A DNA stretch of 64,000 nt from Thermoplasmata archaeon (GTDB lineage: Archaea; Thermoplasmatota; Thermoplasmata; Lutacidiplasmatales; UBA184). A program made the position numbers and the translations under genes. How positions within the stretch are numbered: position 1 is the first letter of the stretch; each line of letters starts with the position of its first letter. Under the pieces are notes generated by a model. It was not told the DNA's origin, made no database searches, and saw only the letters and a list, made by a program, of their open reading frames with translations. Of this stretch, positions 13,890-27,944 are shown in pieces. The stretch lies in the NCBI GenBank assembly GCA_021819135.1, contig JAKASE010000010.1:1-64000 (forward strand), written 5' to 3'.

Positions 13890-14615
13890 CTACGGTCGGA
13901 TACCGAGAGCCGGCGCGGACGGTACCCGAGGCGTCTTTTCGCGACCCGGGCCCGTCATCCCGCCCGATTCGCTCCGGGCGGAGAGGGTCGCGGCGTCGTC
14001 CGCCCTCTCTGCAGGTAGGGCTTCGTGGAGCCCCAAAGGCTCCGTGCCGTCGACGCCGGTCGAGGGCTCGGCCCCGGCCGTTTCCGAACGGATCGGCTCG
14101 AAGATCGGGGGCGAGTCGACCTGGGCGAGTTCCACGGCGAGCTCGCGGATGCACTGGACCGCTTCGGCCAGGCGGTCCTCCTCAACGTAGCGGCTGGCGG
14201 CGAGCCGGAGCCGCCGCGCGCCCGCGGCAAACCGGGCCGAGCGTTCCGCCGGGTCGATCTCTCCGTCCGAGTCGGCGATCCGATCCTCCGCTACGATCGG
14301 GACCGGACCTCGGATCGCGCGGGGCTCGGGTACCTCCGCACCCTTCGGCTCGGCGCGCAGGAGATCCGCGTACCGGCCCCGTGGCGCGGGTGCCTCCGCC
14401 GGGGTGGGGGAGGCCAGTAGCTCCTGTTCCTGCTGGAGCAGGCAGATGCGGCAGAGACACGGGGCATGGACCGCTTCGAGGAAGTAGAACATCCGTTCCC
14501 CGACGCTGAGCAGCCGGGAACACTTCGAACAGTATCGGACGACACGGTCCGGGACCGGGCCGGCGGAGGGGGCGGAGTCGGACGTATCCCCTTCGGGTGG
14601 CCGCGACGGACTCAT
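13890..14615 (-). CDS. Small soluble protein with N-terminal Cys4 knuckle, GT2-linked
   Basis: 241 residues from the ATG at 14615. The N-terminal knuckle reads YCSKCSRLLSVGERMFYF and then CLCRICL, the same layout as the tail of the neighbouring glycosyltransferase (CxxC, LS-x-ER-x-FY, then a second Cys pair). A helical segment near residues 120-160 (ARFAAGARRLRLAASRYVEEDRLAEA) is followed by an acidic, disordered C-terminus. It is the first gene of the unit; an A/T-rich element (TTTTAATAA on the minus strand, about 14671-14680) could be its promoter. It may be a regulatory or scaffolding partner of the transferase; this is inference. Confidence 0.55.
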   Translation of the reverse strand: MSPSRPPEGDTSDSAPSAGPVPDRVVRYCSKCSRLLSVGERMFYFLEAVHAPCLCRICLLQQEQELLASPTPAEAPAPRGRYADLLRAEPKGAEVPEPRAIRGPVPIVAEDRIADSDGEIDPAERSARFAAGARRLRLAASRYVEEDRLAEAVQCIRELAVELAQVDSPPIFEPIRSETAGAEPSTGVDGTEPLGLHEALPAERADDAATLSARSESGGMTGPGREKTPRVPSAPALGIRP

Positions 14616-14792
14616 GCGGATCGTTCCGGTCCGGCGCCCTGTGCCGGCGTTCGGCCGGTTTCTCCCGGGCGATTATTAAAACCCGCACGTCCAGCGGACG
14701 GGGCGACGGGAGACGAGTCCGCGGAGCGACGCCCGGGCCTTGGCGGCTTATCTAAGGGAGCGCCTTGCCGCGCGCCGGGAGAAGGGATCGCG

Positions 14793-16559
14793 TTGACGGC
14801 GGGTGGAGAACGGTCCACGGAGGCCGCGAAGGAGTTCCGAGCGTATCTCGACCGAGATTGGCACGAATGGATGGCTCTCGCTCCCGAGGTCGCCACGATG
14901 GTCGGGCAGCGGGGGTTCGACGACCGGTGGTCGGACGACTCCCCGGAAGGGGTTCGCGCCCGGCAGAACCAGCTCGCCCGGAGCGTGGAGCGGTTCGCCT
15001 CGTTCCGGAGGGACGCCCTGCCGCCGCGGGAACGTCTCAACTTCGACCTCTACGAGGACCTCCTGAACACCGCCGAGGAAGCGCTCCGATTCGGCGATGA
15101 TCCCCTGCCGTTCCGATTCGGTACCCCGAGGAACCTGTGGATGCCCCTGAACCAGATGGAGGGGATCCATGTCCTGGCCCCCGACGTCCTCGACCTGCAG
15201 CCCCGGGTCGCGGTCTCGGACTACGAGACCATCCTCCGTCGGCTCGAAGCACTGCCGAAGGCGATCGCGGAGACGATGGCGCTCATGGAGGCCGGACGCA
15301 CCAAGGGGTACACTCCGAGCCGGGTGGCGGTCCGCGGGGTGCCGTCCCAGCTCTCCGAGCTCGCCCCGTCCGACCCGGTCCAGAGCGCACTACTGCACCC
15401 GTTCACCGAGTTTCCCGCGCGCGTTTCCGAGGCCGATCGCGACCGGCTGCTCGCCGCCGCACGGCAGGTCTATGCGGGTCGGCTCGTGCCGGCGCTTCAG
15501 GAGCTGCGGGCGTACGTGGCCGATCGGTACCTTCCCGCGTGCCGGGAGACGGTCGGCGCTTCGCATCTTCCGGACGGGTCGGAGGCGTACCGCTTCCATC
15601 TCCGGTGGCAGACGACGACCGACCAGACCCCCGAGCAGGTGCACGAGACCGGGCTCGCCGAGGTGCGTAGGATCCAGGCCGCGATGGAGGCGCTCATGCA
15701 TCGCGTCGGGTTTTCGGGGGACCTCCCGGCGTTCCTCGAGTTCCTGCGGACCGACCGTCGATTCTTCCGGGAGAAGCCGGAGGAGCTCATCGAGGCGTAT
15801 CGGGCCCTGACCAAGCGGTGCGACCCGGAGCTCGCGAGGCTCTTCGGCCGCCTGCCGAGGCTGCCGTACGGGGTGCTGCCGCTTCCCCCGTTCCGGGCTC
15901 CGAACTCCCCCGCCGCGTACTACATGCCGGGCGTTCCGGCCAACGGCCGGGCGGGGTACTTCTACGTGAACACCCACCAGATCGGCACCCGTGCGTCGTG
16001 GGAGATGGAGGCGCTCGCGCTGCACGAGTCCGTGCCGGGCCATCACCTCCAGATCGCCCTCGCCCAGGAGCTCGGGGACCTGCCCGAGTTCCGGCGCTAC
16101 TCCGGGTACACCTCGTTCATTGAGGGCTGGGGCCTCTACTCCGAGAGCCTCGGGGAGGAGCTCGGCCTCTACCGCGACCTCTACGCGAAGTTCGGGCAGC
16201 TCTCCTTCGACATGTGGCGGTCCGTGCGCCTCGTGGTGGACACGGGCATGCACGCCCTCGGCTGGTCCCGCGAGCGGGCCGTGGCGTTCTTCCGTGACCA
16301 CACGAGCAGCAGCGACCAGGACATCGGGGTCGAGGTCGACCGGTACATCGCCTGGCCGGGCCAGGCGTGCGCCTACAAGATCGGCCAGCTCAGGCTCCTC
16401 GAGCTCCGGCGCCTCGCCGAGGAGCGCCTCGGGGAACGGTTCGACGTGCGCCGCTTCCACGACGTCGTCCTCGAGGAAGGCGCCCTCCCGCTCGGGATCC
16501 TGGCCGCGCGGGTCCGGCACTGGGTCGAGTCCGAGGCGGCGGCGAACCCGGCCCGCTGA
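14793..16559 (+). CDS. DUF885-family metallo-hydrolase
   Basis: About 588 residues if started at the TTG at 14793, which has GGAGAAGGG upstream; no ATG lies close and the frame is open further upstream. The fold matches DUF885 (PF05960), predicted zinc peptidases of gluzincin type. The diagnostic active-site motif ALHESVPGHHLQIA is at about residues 409-422, followed by the downstream acid region SFIEGWGLYSESLGEEL. GMHALGWSRERAVAFF and GQACAYKIGQL, also typical, follow. There is no signal peptide, so it probably acts in the cytoplasm. It is divergent from the small zinc-knuckle gene. Its substrate is unknown. Confidence 0.87.
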   Translation: MTAGGERSTEAAKEFRAYLDRDWHEWMALAPEVATMVGQRGFDDRWSDDSPEGVRARQNQLARSVERFASFRRDALPPRERLNFDLYEDLLNTAEEALRFGDDPLPFRFGTPRNLWMPLNQMEGIHVLAPDVLDLQPRVAVSDYETILRRLEALPKAIAETMALMEAGRTKGYTPSRVAVRGVPSQLSELAPSDPVQSALLHPFTEFPARVSEADRDRLLAAARQVYAGRLVPALQELRAYVADRYLPACRETVGASHLPDGSEAYRFHLRWQTTTDQTPEQVHETGLAEVRRIQAAMEALMHRVGFSGDLPAFLEFLRTDRRFFREKPEELIEAYRALTKRCDPELARLFGRLPRLPYGVLPLPPFRAPNSPAAYYMPGVPANGRAGYFYVNTHQIGTRASWEMEALALHESVPGHHLQIALAQELGDLPEFRRYSGYTSFIEGWGLYSESLGEELGLYRDLYAKFGQLSFDMWRSVRLVVDTGMHALGWSRERAVAFFRDHTSSSDQDIGVEVDRYIAWPGQACAYKIGQLRLLELRRLAEERLGERFDVRRFHDVVLEEGALPLGILAARVRHWVESEAAANPAR

Positions 16560-17707: not shown

Positions 17708-20700
17708 CTACGACGGGGAGAATGTCGCAACGATCCGTTCGAGATCGCGCTCGCGCAGGAGCTCGGGCGTGACGTGCAACCACACGCGCGCCTCGTGCGC
17801 GCGGGCCATCCGGTCGACCTCCTGGAGCTGGGCCGTGACGTTCTCCACGCCATGGAGGCGCGTGAGGTACTCGATCCCTTCGATGAAGAAGACCGCCGTA
17901 TGCTCGGACTCGAGCTGGCGCTGGAAGAACGATGCGAGCCCGGGGAGGTCGTTCGGCTTCAGGGTCCGACCACGACCGAGGTTCGTGAGCCAGTAGATGT
18001 CGACCGGCCGGCTGCCGGCCTGGGCCCGGATGCGTTCGGGGGATTCCCGGACGACGCAGACCCCCCGGAGACCTGCGCTGGTCGCCTCGAGGAACGGCTG
18101 AAGGGACCCCACGATCGAGGACCCCACGACCAGCTCGATCCCGCCCCGGGGAGGCTCGGGGACCGGGGGCGGGGCTGCCGGCGGTACCGGCGTCGGCGCG
18201 GACGGACCCGCGAGCGCCAACGGAGGGTTCCCGGCAGAGAGGGCGACGGCGTGAGGGAGTCCCGCGGTGCCGTCGGTCCGGGAAGCGGGCGCGGAAGGAC
18301 CCGGGGGCGGCGTTGGCTCCGCCTCCACCGGGACCGGAGGCGCCGGGCCCGCGGGCTTCGGCGTTGCGGAACCCCCGGGGGGCAGATCCGGCAGGTCCGG
18401 CGGGGTGGTGTCCGCAATCTCAGGCGCCGACTCCGGCGCGACTTCCCCAGCCGGAGAGGGCCCCACGTCGACCACGGTTCCGGCTGCGGGCTCGGCGGCC
18501 GCCGGGCTGTCCGAGACCGCCGGAAGCTCGGACAAGGAGTCCGCCGTGGACGGGGCGCCCGGCACGTCTTCCGGGAGCGACGCCGCCTCTGCAGGGGCGC
18601 CGGGTGGCGGCATGGTCGTTTCGGAGGGAACCTCCTCCGTGGAGGACTCGGAAGGAACTACGGCAGCCGGTTCCGGGGCGGCGGTCTCGCCCGCTTCCTC
18701 GTCTCTTGTTCCTGGTCGGGGAGCTCCTTGGGCCGAGACCGGCGGCTCGAGCAGGACCTGCGGTTCCGTCGGCGCGGGAAGGGACGGAGGCTCCACGCCG
18801 AAGTCCCCGGACGGCAGCTGCGGCTCGTGGTCGAGCCCGGGGATCGCCTCGGCCGGGGTCGCGTCAACGATGACATCCGCCTGCACCGGTCCCCGGTCCA
18901 CCGTCGCGGGGGTGGCGGGGGCTTCCGTCGGAAGAGGAGGGGACGGGGGGTACGGCTCGGCGGTCTCAGGGGGAGAGGCAGGCACCGGGACCTCCGAGGG
19001 GAGTCTGGGCGGTTCCTCCGCCGGCACAACGACCTCGGACGCCTCCGCGGGACCCTCCGTAGGGGCCGGTGTTGAGGGGGCTTCCGCCTGCTCCGGGGGC
19101 TCGGCCGCAGGGGGCTCGACCGGATCGAGAGGACCAGCGCCGGGTCGGGGTGCCTCGAGAACGGGTGCTTGCGGAACCTCCATCGAAGCCGCAGGTGGCT
19201 CGGGTTCGGGACCCGCGGAAGGGGTCACTCCGCTTGGGAGAACGTTCACAAGGTCCGGCGGGGAGACGCCGGGGGTGTCGCTCTCGGTCCGTGCGTCCGG
19301 CGGTGCCGACTCCGGTACCTCGGACGGGAGTCCAGGGATTTCGGCGCGCAATTCGGTCGGGGGCGGCGTGGCCGCAGGAGAACCGACGGTGTCGGTGCCG
19401 GAGGGCATAGGAGTGGTCTCTGCAGTACCGGCCGCTGTCGCAGGCGGTGACGGGGCCGGCACGGGTTCGATGCCCCGGTCGTTCCCCACGGCGAATCGGA
19501 CGACCGTCGCGTGGGCGCGGGCGGCGCGGACGGACCGGGGGGGCACCACGCCCCCGACGGCGGTGATCAGTCGCTCCGCGACCCCTCGGCCGAACCCTGG
19601 CAGCTCGTCGATCTCCTCGTACGACGCGTGCCGGAACCGTTCGAGGCTCTGGAATCCCAGGGACCAGGCCGATCGGAGCTTGGCGGGTCCAATGACCGCA
19701 GCGCCGAGCAGGGAGTCGAGTTCCCGGTTGAGGGCGCGGACCGACTCCTCTTGGGCAATGACCGGCTCCGCGGCATAGTCGACCCCCGGCGGGGCATCGG
19801 TCTCTCCCCGACGATGCGGCACGCGTCGGCTCGTGAGACGGGGGACCCGGTGCTTGGCGCGGGCCGCCCGTGTCGGCAGTCCGGGGAGGTCGACCCACCA
19901 CCGACTTCCGGTCCGGGTCCGACCCCGGAGCCGGTTCGGAGGCGCGGTCTCCTCGGGGTGGTCGAGGACGCGTAGTTCGGCGAGCCCAAGGTACTCCGCG
20001 AGCGGCTCGGCCGCCGCCCGGAGCTCGCTCGCCAGCGGGTCCGACGCGACGACGATCGCGACGCCCTCCGCCTGGGTCGGCGCCCCCCGGGCCCGGCGAA
20101 GACGGTGCTCCACGCGCCGGGCCAGCCAGAAGGCGTCCGACGAGAGCGGCGGGGGCGGCGGTCGGCCCGGACGTCCCGCACCGGGGATCCCGAGGTAGAG
20201 CTCTCCCAGGCTCCAGGGGACCGGGAGCATCCCCTCGGGGAGCGTCTCCACGTACTCGACCATGGAAGGGAGCAGGCGTCGGGAGAGGCCCTGGATCACG
20301 ACCGAGAGCTCGCCGGTCGCGGGCTCGGTGGAACGACGGAGCGGCATTCTCCGGAGCACGTGCGCGATCTGCGAGGCCTGGGCCGGGTACGCACGCTGGA
20401 TCTCCGACTCGACGGGCCGGACCCGCCGCTGGCGGCCCTGCCAGGGCTCTCGGGGAGAGCCGACATCGATGTGCCCGATGCGAGCGATCCGTTCGAGCAC
20501 CGATCGGTCGTCCCGCCACCGTTCGGCGGCGTCGTCCCCCCCGAGGACGGCCGCGGCGACCGGGATCGTCGCCTCCGGTGCGATCGCCTGAGCGACCCGG
20601 AACCCGGCGACCGCCGACAGGAACGATCGCCACCGGTCCCACGCCGCGACGAGCCCGTCATCCAAGAGGGCGCGGTCGACGGTCGGGACGTCGGTCCGGA

Positions 20701-22807
20701 ACAGGCTCCCGCGGTCGGGCGTGAGTCGCCGATAGATCGATTCGGCGAGGTAGGGCACGATCGGTCCCAGGAGCACCGAGCCGGTCCGGAGGACGTAGCC
20801 CAGCGTGCGTAGTACGCCCCGCTTCGAGACGGGAGTGCCGGGGAGCGCGAGCCGCGCGGACGTCCAGAGCCGGTAGGTGGCGAGATCGGTCTCGAGGAAC
20901 CGGAAGATCCGACGGTGGGCGGCCCCGGCCGACCCGTGGTCGTAATCGGAGATCGCGAGGACCCGGGTGCGTTCCCAACGGGCGAGCAGGGCCCGGTCCT
21001 CGCGCTCGAGCTCCCCGAGGAATCCGCTCACCGGCTGGGAGAACGTCGCGCGGGTCTCGGGGTCGGCAGACCCGAGGACCTCGCTCGCCAGGACCCATAG
21101 GCGCGCGAGCCGTCTCCGTTCCTGGGCGCACCGGTCGAGGAACGTCGCGGCCGTGCCGCCCCCGACCTCGGTCCGGACGAGCGCGGCGCGGACCGCGTCC
21201 GCCCCATCGGCGTGGAGCCGCTCGGCGAGGTCGAACTCGGGCAGCGTGGGGAGGACCGTGAGGCCGACGTTCGTGACGATCCCCTCGATGCCGGAGAGGC
21301 CGGCGAGCTGATGGATGAGCGCCGGGATCCGGCGCCGTTCGCAGAGATAGAGCCGGGCGGAGTCGGCGACCGGGAACGGATCGAACCGGGCCCATGCCCC
21401 CAGCGCCGACTCGATGGACGGGACGAGCCGGCGGCGGACCGGGTACATCGAGCCCCCGCACGGGCACGCCGGCCGGCCGTCGAGCGCATCGAGGCGCTCG
21501 CACCGGTTGCATTCGAGAAGCGCGATCCCGTCGGGGGCGTCCGTGGTGGTGGTCTCGCTGACCGGCCAGGGCGCCACTTCGACGCGATGCAGCGGCGGTC
21601 CCCCCGGGAGCAGCCGCTGGTAGAGATCGACGGCCTCCGGCGGGAGGCGGCCGGGTTCGAGGCACCACGCCCGGCCCGGGAACCAGATCATGGCGGTACC
21701 GCATTGCATGCAGTGCGGGACGCCGCGGCGGACGCGCAGCGTGGCGAAGACGGCGCCGGCCTCGTGGAGGTCTCGCAGCACGAACTCGGTCGCGGTCGCG
21801 AGGTCGAGCCCGGCGTACTTGTGCACGAGCGTGACATCGAGCGTCCCCCGGGTGGTGAGGATCGGCCAGCCGGGGATGCCGTGGGCCTCCGCGATCCCGG
21901 CGTCGGTGCCCCCGTGCCCGGGAACCAGGGGAACGATGCCCGTCCCGGTCCCCGAGACGTCGGCGACCGCGAGGACCGTCCCTCCGGGCGGGTCCACGGC
22001 ACCTCCCATCGGGAACTCGTGGCGCAGGGGGTACTGGTACGGTCGGCCGGCGAACTCGCGCCCCGGACGCTCCTCGAGGACCTCGAAGAGACCGTCGGGG
22101 ATCCATTGCCGGAACCGGTCGAGGGACGAGCGGGACGTGAGGATGAGCTCCTCGGCGCCCTTCCGGCGGTACCGGCAGAGGGCGTACGGTGCGTCGGGAT
22201 GGACGAGGATCGCCGTGGCGCCGAGCAGCTTCCACGGCGAGTCGACCCAGACGAGCAGGTGGACGACCCGTTCGTCGTACGCGACGTCGAACCGGATCAG
22301 GTAGGTATCGCCCTCCTCCTCCTGGTAGATGATCCGCTCGGGGCTGCGGGGGGCGCCGCACGTCGGGCAAAGGCGGAGGGGCAGGTCCCGCGAGACGATC
22401 GTGCCGCGCCTCGCCAGACGGCCGACGACCCGCTCGAGCCGGTCGTGCCGGACCTCGCCGTCCCAGGGGGTCCGGCCCGGGCCCCCGGTCCACACCCCGA
22501 GCGTGCGGAGGAGGTCCGCCCCTGGGGGTTCGTCCGGGCCGTCCGGGGCCCGCACCCAGCGCATTTCCCCGACCGACCGACGTCCAACGAGGGCCAGGTA
22601 TCGCGCTTCGACATCCGCCACGACCGCGCGGTAGGCCGCGAACGGGGACCCCGGCGGAACCCCCAGTTCACCTTCGAACAGGTGTAGCACCGGCCCGTCG
22701 GGCGGACCGAGCGTCCCCCCCGCCGGCGGCAGGCCGTGCGATTTCCAGAACCCTTCCACCTCGCCCGAGAGCCGCTCGGGATCGTAGGAGGAGTCGGTCG
22801 TGGTCAT
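17708..22807 (-). CDS. Degenerate isoleucyl-tRNA-synthetase-like protein fused to HhH, long linker and DUF835
   Basis: 1,699 residues in one uninterrupted frame from the ATG at 22807. Residues 1 to about 1000 follow archaeal IleRS: zinc knuckles CPTCG (about 145), CMQCG (365) and CNRC/CPCGG (435-455); a CP1 editing-domain core with [15 protein letters not shown] and [17 protein letters not shown]; and an anticodon-binding helical region. Both synthetic signatures are missing: the HIGH position reads [10 protein letters not shown] and the KMSKS loop is cut down to VLPTLPEF. Aminoacylation is therefore unlikely. A helix-hairpin-helix lies at about 1029-1082 ([19 protein letters not shown]). About 460 Pro/Ala/Glu/Ser-rich residues follow, then DUF835 at 1554-1699 ([22 protein letters not shown]). 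It is divergent from eIF5A. A tRNA-binding, editing or sensing role is inference; a genuine IleRS must lie elsewhere. Confidence 0.85.
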
Positions 22808-22948: not shown

Positions 22949-23335
22949 ATGGCCTGGACGCAGCAAGAGGTTCGGGAACTGAAGGAAGGCCGGTACATGT
23001 TGATCGACGAAGAGCCGTGCCGCATCCTCAGTATCCAGACCTCGAAACCGGGGAAGCACGGGGAGGCGAAGGCCCGGATCGATGCGGTCGGCATCTTCGA
23101 CGGGTCGAAGCGGAGCGTGGTCTTCCCGGTGAAGCACAAGGTGCAGGTGCCGATGATCGGGAAACGTCAGGCCCAGGTCCTGTCGCTCACCGACGCCGAG
23201 GTCCAGTTGATGGACCTCGAGAGCTACGAGACGTTCAGCCTTCCGATCGACGCCGAGACCCGCGGCCAGCTCAGTCCCGGCGCCGAGATCCAGTACCTGG
23301 ACGCGATGGGGAAGCGGCGGATCTCCCGCCCCTGA
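22949..23335 (+). CDS. eif5A: Translation factor aIF5A
   Basis: 128 residues from the ATG at 22949. The N-terminal SH3-like domain carries the hypusination loop [11 protein letters not shown] with the modified lysine at residue 36. The C-terminal OB domain ([19 protein letters not shown]) follows. The factor binds the ribosome and relieves stalling, for example at proline runs. Length and loop are standard for archaea. It is divergent from the very Pro-rich synthetase-like fusion, a product whose own translation would plausibly need this factor. The weak TTATGG element at about 22907 may be its promoter. Confidence 0.96.
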
Positions 23336-23465: not shown

Positions 23466-26400
23466 ACGACGGGACCGGGCGGATCGGGAGCGCTCCCGTC
23501 GTCCCGCCTCACGCGCATCCTCCAAGAGAAGGCGGAGGCGCTCAAGCGCCAGCGACAGGCCGCGGAGGCCCAGCTGAAGCAGGTCGAGGACCAGCTCTCG
23601 TTCCTGGACCACCTCGGGATCACGCCGGCGGACGTCCCGGAGCGGGTCGCCGCGCTCAAGGATCTCCAGCGGCGGTCGGACTGGGACGGCGTGGAGAAGG
23701 AGTCGGTCGCGCTCCTCGGCCACCTCGAGAAGACGGTCCCCGAGACCCTGGAGACCCGTCGACAGCGAGCGCTCGAGACGATCGGCCAGCTCTCCGGGCT
23801 CGGGATCTCGGTCCGGGCGGAGGTGAAGACCGAGCTCGAGGCCCTCGCGCATCCGCCGTCCGGCGAGAGCTGGTCGACGACCGTCGGGCGTCTTGTCCGC
23901 GTCGACCAGCAGCTGCGGAGCGCCGAGGCGAGTCACGTCGACGGGGCCCGCACGCGCGCGCAGCGGGTCGCCGAGTGGGCCGGGTTGGCCCCGGAGCGGC
24001 GCGCGGCGCTGGAGAGCCAGCTCGACCAGGCGGCCGAAGCCGCGAAGGAGGGTCGCCCGGCGGAATCGCTGGGTGCGATTGCTCGGATGCTGCGCGAGGG
24101 CCTGCCCGAGGCGGTGGAGAAGCGACGCCGGATCCGGGACGCCGCGACCACCCTCTTCGAGCAGGCGAAGGAGCTCGGGGCCCCGACGGCGCGTCTCGAG
24201 TCCGCGCTCAAGGCCGGCGCCGATGCCGCGGTCGAGGAGTGGCCGGACACGGTCCCCCAGACCGAGGCCGCGGCGGCCGAGCTCGGTGAGGCGCTGCGGG
24301 AGCGCGCGAAGCAGTCGCTCCAGGCCCTCCGGGCGTCGGTCGACGCGACCGTCGAGTACGGGGTCGATCCGGGCGAAGCGCGTCGCACGATCGATGAGGC
24401 GCTCGCCTTGCTCGCCACGGCACCGGCGCTCGAGATCCATCCGGTCTTCGTCGAGGCCCGGAAGATCGCCGAGGAGCCGGTGGTGACGGTGATCGCGGGG
24501 CTGCTCGACGAGGTCCGTCCCCGCATCGCAGAGGCCCGTCGCCTCGGACGGGACCCGAGCGAGGTCTTCGCGTCCATGAACCGCGCGCGCGAGGCGCTGC
24601 GGCTCAAGATCTACTCCGAGGCGTTCGCGGCGAGCCAGGAGGCACTGGAACGGGTCACCCGGCTCACCGAGGACCTCTCCGCCGCCCGCGACGAGCTCCA
24701 GGCCCTCGACGAGATGATCGAGCGGTTCCGAACGGTCGGCTTCTCGGTCGAGGGGATCGACGCGACGGTCGGACGGATCCGTGCGCATCTCGAGAAGGGT
24801 GAGGTCGGCCCCGCCCAGGAGCTCCTGCGGACGAGCCTCGTCGCGATCGGCCGGGACGCCCTTCAGTTCTTCCTGGGTCGCTGGACCTCGCTCGACAAGG
24901 TCCGGGAGTACGCCCAGAACCACGGGTTCCTGGCCGAGAAGATCGACCACGGCCTCGGCGAGGCCCGGGAGCTCCTCGACCAGGGAAACCTCGCGGAGGC
25001 GGCCGAGTCGCTCTCCCGTGCCGAGGTCGACCTGCGCACGGCCGCGACGCCGTACGTGGGGCGCCGGGTCGAGGAGATGGTCCAGGGCCTTTCCGACATC
25101 CCCGACGATGCGCTCACCGCCCCGGTCCGCCGCCAGCTCGCCGACGCCGACGTCGCGCTGCGGGTCAAACAGGACCTCATCGGGTCGATCGAGAGCCTCC
25201 GGCGCGCCGAGCGGGACTTCGCCGCCGTCTTCGCCGCGCACGCTTCCTCCCTGGTGGAGGTCCTCGAGACCGAGGGCCACCTGCTCGAGCAGATGGGGGG
25301 TGGCAGCGACGAGATCCAGCGCCAGATCGACGAGGTCCAGCAGATCTTCAACATGGGAGACTTCGTCAAGGCGTCGCGGGCCTCCCAGGAGATCCGCACG
25401 CGCGCCCAGCAGCAGCAGCTCCTCCGGAGCGAGGAGGCGGTCTCGCACGCGAAGCTCTCCCTCGTGGAGCTCGAGACGATGGGCGTCGACCTCGCGCCGT
25501 TCCGCACCCAGCTCGAGGAAGCCCAGGCCGCGTCGCGGTCCGGCCAGTTCCTGGACGCGTACCGTTCGGCGACCAAGCTCGAGGAGGCCGCCGGGAGAGC
25601 CCGGGCCGCCGGCCAGCAGGTCATCGAGGGGATCGCCCATGCGGGCGATCAGCTGAACCGACTCCGCGAGGCCGGGATCGACCCGACGCCGTTCTACGAG
25701 CCCTTGCGGGAAGCACGCCTCGCCTTCCAGGCGCTCCAGTTCGACGCGGCGCGGACGACCCTCGAGTCGGTCGAGCAGCGCCTCGTCGAGGAGGGGGCCC
25801 GGCTCGAGACCACGCGGCTCCTCCACGAGATCGGGCTCCTGGTCGAGGACGGGCGACGTCTTTCGACGCCGATGGAGCCGTACGTGGCCCGCATCGAGCA
25901 GGTGCGGACCGAACGGGCGACCGCACCGGCGGAAGCGACCCGCACCGCCGCGCGCCTCCTGCACGAGGAGCTCATCGCGATCCTTCGGCCCGTGCTCGAG
26001 GAGAACCTGCGGAGCCTCGAGCGCGATCTCGACATCGCCCGGTCGGCCGGCGTCGACCTCGACCGGATCCTCGTGCCGCTCGCCGAGGCCCGGCGCCGCA
26101 TCGTGCTTCCGGTCCCGATCGGCGCGGCCGCGCTCCTCGACCAGGCGCGGGCGGAGTTCATCGAGACCCGCGGCCTGGTCGATCACGCCGAGCGGGTCGC
26201 GAAGCGCGCCCGCGACGCGCTCGGGCAGGCCGATCTCCTGCACGTCGACACCGTCGGGCTCAAGGGACAGATGGACCGTCTCGATCAATTGCTCGCGCAG
26301 CGGCAGTTCGCCCGCGCCATCGAGCTCGGGGGGCCGCTCGAGCGCGATCTCGTGCAGGCGACGTACCAGCACGTCTCGAAGACGCTCGCCGGGTTCCAGG

Positions 26401-27944
26401 CGACGGTCTCCCGCTTCCGGACCGCGGGAGTCGACACCTCGCTCGCCGAGAACCTGCTCCACCAGTCCCGGATGGCCCTCGACGAGGGCCGCGCGGTCGA
26501 GGCGCTCCAGCTGGCCGCCCGCAGCGAGTCCGAGATCGAGCGCGCGGACCTCCAGCGGAAGATCGCCGAAGGCTCGTTGCGGACGGCGGAGGCGAAGGTC
26601 GCGAAGGCCGCCGCGGACGGGATTGTGGGACCGGCCGCCGAGATCGAGTTCGAGCAGGCGAAGGCATCCTTCCAATCCCGGGCGTACCCCGATGTGCTCG
26701 AGCACTCGATGGCGGCGCTCGACGCCCTCACGGGCGCGCGCGACGGACATCGCCGGGCCCTGGACGCCGTGACCGCGGCCGACCGCCAGGTGGCGGAGGC
26801 CAAGGCGAACGGCGCGGACGTCGCCGAGGCCGGCGGCCGGCTCACCGAGGCCCGGCACCTGTTCGAGGCCGGCAAATACTCCGAGGCGATCCGGGCGGCG
26901 CGCGAGGCCGTCGAGGTCGGACGCTGGTCGATCGAGCGCCTGTTCGCGGTCCCCCTCGGTGACCTGCGGCGGCAGGTCGACGGGGCCCGGCGACAGGGGC
27001 TCACGACCGAGGTCGACCCGCTCGATTCCCTGGTCGGCGAGGGGGAGACGGCCCTACGGAGCCGCGAGTGGGGCCGGGTGAAGGAAGTCATCGGCCGGGG
27101 CGAGTCCCTCTCGCGCCGGATGCTCGACGAGCTGGTCGACGGGCGCTGGCGGGAGATCGAGGCGGAGTACGCCCGTGGGCCGACCCCCCCCGCCGCCGAG
27201 GGGACACGGCGGGCCGAGCTCGTCCAGCAGCTCAAGGCGCTGCGGGAGAAGCGCGACTTCGGCGCCGCGCTCGCCCTCGTCAAGCTCGAGGAGGAGACCA
27301 TCCGGCGCCGCCGCAAGGAGCTCGTCGAGGCGCGCATGGCGGAGTTCCGGGACCGTCTCTGGGTCGGCGAGCGGCTCGGGGTCGACACGACGCCGGTGAT
27401 GCAGAAGTTCAGCGAGGCCCGAGTGGCCCTCGATTCCGGCCGTCTCGAGGAGGCCGAGCTCCTCCTCGGCCGGGCCGTGACCGCCCTCGAGGGGGTCGTC
27501 CGGGAGCCGTACGGCCTGCGGTTCAAGGAGGTCCAGACCGAAGTGACGTTCGCGGAGGAGGGTCTCCATGTCTCGGTCGGGACGGTCCGGGACCGGCTGA
27601 AGCAGGCCGACGAGCTGAGCCGGGCCGGTCGGCTCCTCGACGCGGCGCGCCAGCTCCTGAAGACGGAAGAGGACCTCAACCTGAGGAAGTCGCTCCATCG
27701 GGAGCTCGTCAATCTCCACTACCTCATCGACGCGGCACTCGCGCGCGCCCACGACCGTCGGATCGACACCGCTCCGGCGCGGGCGCTGCTCGCGGAGTCG
27801 ATCCGGATCCGCGAGACCGACTACGCGGCCGCGCTCGAGAAGGCCCGTGAGGCGCTGCGCACGCTCCAGGAGGCCGGCGCCACCCCGACCGAGGCCGCCC
27901 CGTCGGCCTCCCCGCTCTGGCCGTTCCGTCGTCGGTCGTCCTAA
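23466..27944 (+). CDS. Giant all-helical repeat protein of unknown function
   Basis: About 1,492 residues from the proposed ACG at 23466; the first canonical in-frame start is the GTG at 23691 (1,417 residues), but the coding pattern clearly begins earlier (RILQEKAEALKRQRQAAEAQ). The whole protein is predicted helical. It is built from degenerate units of roughly 35-110 residues with a recurring theme: a G-[IV]-D-x3-[PF] turn, then LxEAxxAL, then GxYxEAxxxAxxA. This is reminiscent of TPR or spectrin-like solenoids. There are no TM segments; the C-terminus is PLWPFRRRSS. A scaffold or cytoskeleton-like role is possible, not shown. The stop codon is created by the IS630 insertion. Confidence 0.8.
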   Translation, partial: TTGPGGSGALPSSRLTRILQEKAEALKRQRQAAEAQLKQVEDQLSFLDHLGITPADVPERVAALKDLQRRSDWDGVEKESVALLGHLEKTVPETLETRRQRALETIGQLSGLGISVRAEVKTELEALAHPPSGESWSTTVGRLVRVDQQLRSAEASHVDGARTRAQRVAEWAGLAPERRAALESQLDQAAEAAKEGRPAESLGAIARMLREGLPEAVEKRRRIRDAATTLFEQAKELGAPTARLESALKAGADAAVEEWPDTVPQTEAAAAELGEALRERAKQSLQALRASVDATVEYGVDPGEARRTIDEALALLATAPALEIHPVFVEARKIAEEPVVTVIAGLLDEVRPRIAEARRLGRDPSEVFASMNRAREALRLKIYSEAFAASQEALERVTRLTEDLSAARDELQALDEMIERFRTVGFSVEGIDATVGRIRAHLEKGEVGPAQELLRTSLVAIGRDALQFFLGRWTSLDKVREYAQNHGFLAEKIDHGLGEARELLDQGNLAEAAESLSRAEVDLRTAATPYVGRRVEEMVQGLSDIPDDALTAPVRRQLADADVALRVKQDLIGSIESLRRAERDFAAVFAAHASSLVEVLETEGHLLEQMGGGSDEIQRQIDEVQQIFNMGDFVKASRASQEIRTRAQQQQLLRSEEAVSHAKLSLVELETMGVDLAPFRTQLEEAQAASRSGQFLDAYRSATKLEEAAGRARAAGQQVIEGIAHAGDQLNRLREAGIDPTPFYEPLREARLAFQALQFDAARTTLESVEQRLVEEGARLETTRLLHEIGLLVEDGRRLSTPMEPYVARIEQVRTERATAPAEATRTAARLLHEELIAILRPVLEENLRSLERDLDIARSAGVDLDRILVPLAEARRRIVLPVPIGAAALLDQARAEFIETRGLVDHAERVAKRARDALGQADLLHVDTVGLKGQMDRLDQLLAQRQFARAIELGGPLERDLVQATYQHVSKTLAGFQATVSRFRTAGVDTSLAENLLHQSRMALDEGRAVEALQLAARSESEIERADLQRKIAEGSLRTAEAKVAKAAADGIVGPAAEIEFEQAKASFQSRAYPDVLEHSMAALDALTGARDGHRRALDAVTAADRQVAEAKANGADVAEAGGRLTEARHLFEAGKYSEAIRAAREAVEVGRWSIERLFAVPLGDLRRQVDGARRQGLTTEVDPLDSLVGEGETALRSREWGRVKEVIGRGESLSRRMLDELVDGRWREIEAEYARGPTPPAAEGTRRAELVQQLKALREKRDFGAALALVKLEEETIRRRRKELVEARMAEFRDRLWVGERLGVDTTPVMQKFSEARVALDSGRLEEAELLLGRAVTALEGVVREPYGLRFKEVQTEVTFAEEGLHVSVGTVRDRLKQADELSRAGRLLDAARQLLKTEEDLNLRKSLHRELVNLHYLIDAALARAHDRRIDTAPARALLAESIRIRETDYAAALEKAREALRTLQEAGATPTEAAPSASPLWPFRRRSS

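Follow-up and report, generated by a model that had tools for sequence, protein, structure and literature searches.

A catalytically degenerate isoleucyl-tRNA synthetase with a helix-hairpin-helix and DUF835 tail in Thermoplasmata, possibly kept for a second role

A pseudo-synthetase joined to a signalling-type domain

We analysed a stretch of 64,000 nucleotides from a Thermoplasmata archaeon (contig JAKASE010000010.1), in the following denoted the window, and within it a gene on the minus strand (17708..22807) whose product consists of an isoleucyl-tRNA synthetase (IleRS) body, a helix-hairpin-helix (HhH), a long linker, and a DUF835 domain. We are highly confident that the protein is a pseudo-isoleucyl-tRNA synthetase originating from a lineage of fused IleRS-HhH-DUF835 proteins, denoted type A; standalone IleRS are denoted type B. 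The full statement, namely that this type-A pseudo-synthetase was displaced by type B and is kept for a second job as a sensor or regulator, we consider about evenly balanced between true and false. A dead copy that is kept by selection and carries a signalling-type domain points to a second job for a core translation protein.

The gene is read in a single frame from 22807 to 17708 on the minus strand (1,699 codons, ATG start, 0 internal stops), as are all parts of it named here. IleRS ancestry of the body, proposed in an original prediction made from the DNA letters alone, is borne out by a Pfam match to the anticodon-binding domain Anticodon_1 (residues 604-750, 20558..20998, E 2.1e-8), as well as by the T. 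thermophilus IleRS (1ile), which aligns to residues 134-390 (E 5e-22). The NCBIfam ileS profile scores 99 bits with a cut-off of 621, and the equivalog threshold is missed. By motif reading, residues 1-145 (22373..22807) are the remnant of the first catalytic half, devoid of the HIGH and G[WFY]DxHG segments. Residues 146-390 (21638..22372; 1ile alignment, identity) hold the zinc cysteines C147, C150, C366 and C369 and the core of the connective peptide 1 (CP1) editing domain, and residues 391-600 (21008..21637) comprise a second zinc set (C433, C436, C448 and C450) and the second catalytic half without KMSKS. The IleRS C-terminal region (residues 761-985, 19853..20527) receives no Pfam call in the window protein, though DUF5915 is called there in relatives. 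Downstream follow a helix-hairpin-helix (HHH_5, residues 1033-1082, 19562..19711; Pfam E 1.1e-4, under the cut-off), a Pro/Ala/Glu-rich linker (residues 1086-1550, 18158..19552), and DUF835 (residues 1577-1692, 17732..18079; Pfam E 3.9e-15, 56.3 bits versus a cut-off of 33.1), in agreement with the predicted succession of HhH, long linker and DUF835 behind the IleRS body. The length of the linker varies across the family: the stretch 1086-1545 corresponds to between 80 and 576 residues among 21 same-genus members. A link by sequence between the HhH and ribosomal eL32 was weak (E 0.013) and not used.

Loss of the catalytic motifs

We aligned 112 proteins and read them at the catalytic motifs, complemented by a regular-expression (regex) scan; motif counts refer to proteins read, and in the codes used below f denotes a family and g a genus. 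The loss of HIGH and KMSKS, originally noticed in the window protein alone, extends to its whole family, with neither motif at its site in any of the 27 members read. HxG[HTDL] (HIGH) and the G[WFY]DxHG strand were found in 0 of 27 by alignment and regex, and the KMSKS loop is absent from the alignment in all 27. A single protein has a regex match to KMSKS, but this sequence (LSKR, residue 659) is not part of the loop. The intact fused proteins, on the other hand, have HIGH (in the form HxGT), G[WFY]DxHG and KMSKS (as MSKS, MHKS or LSKS) in 17 of the 17 read. Between these states stand the fused copies of f2 (HIGH kept in 2/2, KMSKS lost) and of f13 and f18 (HIGH kept in 2/3, KMSKS lost); both HIGH and KMSKS are lost in f3, f6 and f9 (9 proteins), as in the window family. 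The regex matches to KMSKS seen in f18 and one of the f6 proteins belong to another motif. The window protein is the extreme of this type-A decay series.

The original prediction had named a second, intact ileS as a check, and one is present in the same genome at G000:C4:76392-78854 (789 bits). Likewise, in the seven families whose type A is decayed (own included), the standalone IleRS have both motifs intact in all 15 copies read, which come from 9 of the 14 genomes with decayed type A described below and from 6 own-genus genomes. The reverse of the window lineage was observed in f5 (L105, L109, L113), where KMSKS is missing from the standalone IleRS (3/3) while the fused copy has intact motifs. 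In f20, the second IleRS (L112) matches neither motif by regex (1/1), has odd HIGH and KMSKS regions, and forms a long branch in the tree.

Ancestry

A tree was built from 615 columns without the catalytic parts, for 59 rows chosen from the 112 proteins. Decayed type A constitutes one side of a branch with support 100/99, and type B constitutes one side of another branch (100/100). In approximately unbiased (AU) tests, whose groups were defined after inspection of the tree, forcing the window family together with the standalone ileS of its own family was rejected with p 0.00013; forcing it together with all type B gave p 0.0024. On the tree and the former value, a decayed copy of the organism's own ileS is rejected under the model used. 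The window protein belongs to the type-A fusion family, both by an ancestry apart from type B and by its tail of HhH and DUF835, and the topology fits catalysis having been lost once, with decay then proceeding further in several of the families.

Occurrence of fused synthetases

The original prediction knew of no other protein with this domain order. The order is not unique to the window protein: the same architecture, sought in related genomes as had been suggested, was found across the class, widely with intact motifs and often as the sole IleRS. With ileS we searched 40 genomes of the same order and class but outside the own family. A single IleRS of type A was found in 16 of them, and its motifs are intact in all 13 read at these sites, a set that leaves out G070, G072 and G077 (the IleRS of G070 and G072 being partial, that of G077 split in two places). 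The DUF835 tail is seen in 14 of these 16 genomes (12 within the set of 50 tails described below, plus G070 and G077); in G067 and G072 it is truncated or not visible. A decayed type A together with a standalone IleRS occurs in 14 of the 40 genomes (f2, f3, f6, f9, f13, f18), with KMSKS lost in 14/14 and HIGH lost in 10/14; the matches to the standalone IleRS are partial in G093, in two pieces in G089, and with one TAG in G079. Four genomes (f5, f20) combine an intact type A with a second IleRS; in three (f8) the sole IleRS is an unfused type A, and three (two f19, one f15) are without a full-length type A. In place of the latter, the f15 genome encodes a 929-aa protein of the order Anticodon_1-DUF5915-HhH-Zn ribbon-DUF835, from which the synthetase core is absent. 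Such trimmed relatives were seen in f15 at L185:2151-4937 (929 aa; Pfam domains read) and at L186:1740-4499 (920 aa). Among the matches listed for 111 class genomes, a set that overlaps the 40 and has motifs outside its scope, the same kinds recur. No relative was confirmed on the viral contigs searched.

Closer to the window, residues 1-830 are matched in 44 of the 61 same-genus genomes, own included (E < 1e-25, some matches lying on cut contigs), and the matches in these 44 genomes contain no stops. Within the own family, 44 of the 71 genomes that are at least 80% complete harbor a fused copy, distributed over 3 of 7 genera. A profile of 17 decayed cores, with matches judged by score and frame length, recovered from the same-genus genomes without the gene only a piece in G051, which was counted as present. 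Tails of type-A proteins are equally recurrent: DUF835 is found in 48 and HHH_5 in 40 of 50 uncut tails, a set that leaves out eight tails cut by contig ends and the three unfused f8 proteins. Because the core is matched in 44 of 61 same-genus genomes and DUF835 is present in 48 of 50 uncut tails, we reject an assembly join of separate genes, which the original prediction had raised against itself.

According to the accessible portion of PMC5847659, DUF835 is an inactive KaiC-like domain. The Walker A pattern GxxxxGK[ST] was found in 0 of the 50 type-A tails (last 220 aa), and the DUF835 profile retrieved no chain from the PDB at E up to 5. Two g32 genomes have 6 and 10 matches to DUF835, and in two g32 proteins of approximately 1,000 aa (L187:471-3515 and L188:130-3204) the domain lies inside or overlaps an AAA_16 ATPase domain and is accompanied by tetratricopeptide repeats.

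Selection and the CP1 editing domain

The window gene is under purifying selection. Over the first 850 residues, the ratio of nonsynonymous to synonymous substitution rates (dN/dS, NG86) is 0.115-0.323 for the 12 closest of 351 pairs, values that are rough because dS reaches 1.4. The alignment of 21 same-genus members contains 183 near-invariant columns. In the window family this constraint is strongest in the CP1 editing domain: mean pairwise identity among 21 uncut members is 0.58 for CP1, 0.40-0.47 for the other folded parts, and 0.29 for the linker. In all 6 pairs compared, dN too is lowest for CP1, and in 5 of the 6 so is dN/dS. For the 17 intact fused enzymes, identity falls from the catalytic halves (0.57) to CP1 (0.52) and on to the anticodon and C-terminal parts (0.47). 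The best-kept part of f6 and f9 is instead the C-terminal region (0.80 and 0.56, respectively).

The eight cysteines of the two sets, both of which bind zinc in IleRS, are complete in all 41 decayed proteins, including the 27 of the window family. D302 of the window protein occupies the position of T. thermophilus D328 in the 1ile alignment; via shared motifs, D302 corresponds to E. coli D342, and V188, K193 and P293 correspond to the positions of T241, T246 and H333. In E. coli IleRS, Thr241 and Asp342 have a part in hydrolysis, and Thr246 and His333 block the hydrolysis of cognate Ile-tRNA, as described in the accessible portion of PMC9023258. The Asp342 position is Asp in 27/27 members of the window family. 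The His333 position is His in 0/27 (P293 in the window protein), the Thr246 position is Lys or Arg in 27/27 and Thr in none, and the Thr241 position is Thr in 10/27 and Val in 14/27. Two residues, D189 and H329, are invariant in the window family but occur in none of the 17 intact fused enzymes. Elsewhere the Asp position holds Glu in f2 (2/2) and Ser or Gly in f9 (3/4). Judged by these residues, the CP1 pocket of the window family is rebuilt. The originally predicted retention of an editing-domain core is hence half right: the domain is present and the most conserved part of the protein, but its editing His and Thr residues are changed.

Sensor, scaffold or deacylase

A sensor or regulator mechanism is our best reading, if a tentative one that falls somewhat short of even confidence, because a putatively tRNA-binding body is kept, the CP1 pocket is rebuilt, and the tail is of a signalling type. 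The ancestor would have been a fused IleRS-HhH-DUF835 protein with intact motifs. In the lineage leading to the window gene a standalone type B would have taken over charging, a displacement suggested by the co-occurrence of both types, and the fused type A would then have lost its catalytic site and been retained for a second job. Its body would bind tRNA via the anticodon-binding, C-terminal and HhH parts, as the kept domains suggest; the rebuilt pocket may recognize the acceptor end, the aminoacyl group on it, or an amino acid in free form; and the long flexible linker would couple the state of CP1 to DUF835, the putative signalling module. One specific version is a displaced synthetase turned sensor of amino acids or tRNA charge, whose CP1 would bind either isoleucine in free form, or a relative of it, or the end of an aminoacyl-tRNA and signal via DUF835. 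The pocket would suit it, with the blocking Thr and His removed, the Asp kept and Lys or Arg added; in this precise form we regard the proposal as unlikely.

The same pocket could also serve a deacylase that acts in trans, with CP1 hydrolysing mischarged tRNAIle or, as a means of tuning charging, cognate Ile-tRNAIle. CP1 being the most conserved part of the window family, the hydrolytic Asp being kept in 27/27, and the hydrolysis-blocking positions of Thr246 and His333 being changed in 27/27 (roles as in the accessible portion of PMC9023258) all speak for such an activity. However, Thr occupies the Thr241 position in 10/27 only, with Val in 14, Lys or Arg stands at the Thr246 position, the Asp is replaced in f2 (Glu, 2/2) and f9 (Ser or Gly, 3/4), and DUF835 is left unexplained, which makes a deacylase a little less probable still than the specific charge sensor. 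Trans-editing as a role common to all decayed copies is ruled out by f2 and most of f9, which are without the Asp. A structural scaffold would gather tRNA or translation factors, docking them by its HhH and C-terminal parts and sensing nothing. The decayed lineages indeed retain the anticodon-binding and C-terminal regions, the zinc sites and mostly the HhH; the f15 protein is reduced to Anticodon_1-DUF5915-HhH-Zn ribbon-DUF835; the C-terminal region is best kept in f6 and f9; and an eIF5A gene is the divergent neighbor in 25 of 26 same-genus loci. Yet the constraint in the window family lies on CP1 more than on the docking parts, and eIF5A was not found near the fused gene in any of 34 loci from other families (flanks of 0.2-4.5 kb), so that a scaffold is improbable as well, if slightly less so than either of these two. 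The original prediction had named a trans-editing factor, a tRNA-charge sensor and a regulator as possible roles; overall, the data lean towards a sensor or scaffold over plain trans-editing.

That the gene is a functionless copy drifting towards loss would agree with its patchy presence. The eIF5A locus was recovered in 10 of 16 genomes that lack the gene or are doubtful, and inspection of 1.5 kb beside eIF5A revealed no gene remnant in nine same-genus loci (the tenth, L175, ends there). The low dN/dS, the stop-free matches in 44 of 61 genomes, and the 183 near-invariant columns nevertheless make a dying copy very improbable. Were the gene a duplicate of the resident ileS that decayed recently and was joined to DUF835 in this lineage, both proteins being IleRS-like would be accounted for; with the AU p of 0.00013 and the intact fused relatives found in the class outside the own family, this is scarcely credible.

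A number of observations weigh against a selected second job built on CP1 and the tail. The fused copy is absent from 17 of the 61 same-genus genomes, 6 of which are at least 90% complete, and the profile of decayed cores gave no fused-type match in 12 genomes of the genera g32 and g95-g97; being absent from many relatives, its job is therefore dispensable. The anticodon domain of the window family is not specially conserved (0.41), and same-genus type-B ileS also have a well-kept CP1 (n=6; 0.70, versus an anticodon domain at 0.60). Conservation in f9 is lowest in CP1, where the Asp is mostly lost; the CP1 reading therefore cannot describe a role common to all decayed copies. The two tails without DUF835 are the f6 proteins L082 and L084, which carry tandem HhH. 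As for ancestry, the tree is unrooted and has long branches, the letter composition of several same-genus rows is unusual, and an earlier FastTree tree (918 columns) supports the decayed group at 0.82 only; the post hoc groups of the AU tests and the roughness of the dN/dS values are to be added.

Relation to known systems

Among described proteins, LeuRS-I of Sulfolobaceae is likewise a supernumerary class I synthetase of archaea, one that binds tRNA without aminoacylating it (accessible portion of PMC9437257), tRNA binding being probable for the window protein. LeuRS-I still makes leucyl-adenylate and its CP1 is disrupted, whereas in the window protein the motifs are gone and CP1 is best kept; the description in that portion of PMC9437257 mentions no DUF835. 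SbzA, an IleRS homolog of Streptomyces, is derived from IleRS and has a job outside charging, as the window protein may have. It moves Ile from Ile-tRNA to a metabolite, and its description names no HhH or DUF835 (same portion of PMC9437257). Archaeal response regulators share the Pfam domain DUF835, but there it is joined to REC or PAS and not to a synthetase (accessible portion of PMC5847659). The direct relatives with identical domain order are the fused IleRS-HhH-DUF835 proteins of the class (e.g., L045), which differ by their intact motifs and are the sole IleRS found in 16 of 40 genomes.

These sole enzymes suggest that in many Thermoplasmata tRNAIle is charged by an enzyme that carries a signalling-type domain. 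Our literature search retrieved no report of tRNAIle charging by such a fusion enzyme, nor of a protein like that of the window. Taken together, members of the class form a natural series that starts with a working-type synthetase bearing a signalling tail as the sole IleRS, passes through a duplicate, and ends in a catalytically dead copy that selection has kept. In this series the second job of a core translation enzyme stands by itself and becomes testable; sensing and signalling by the window protein are plausible candidates for it.

Genomic neighborhood

The eIF5A gene (22949..23335, plus strand, Pfam) is the head-to-head divergent neighbor of the pseudo-synthetase gene at a distance of 141 bp. 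In the 25 other same-genus loci with this upstream, divergent arrangement, the distance is 131-263 bp in 23 and near 2.4 kb in two. Beyond eIF5A, a frame of 1,417 aa (23691-27944, plus strand) without Pfam match, coiled-coil-like by eye, recurs in 24 of 26 same-genus loci. On the downstream side, a DUF885 protein is encoded at 14466-16559 on the plus strand (E 4e-167), and is found downstream also in three other same-genus loci.

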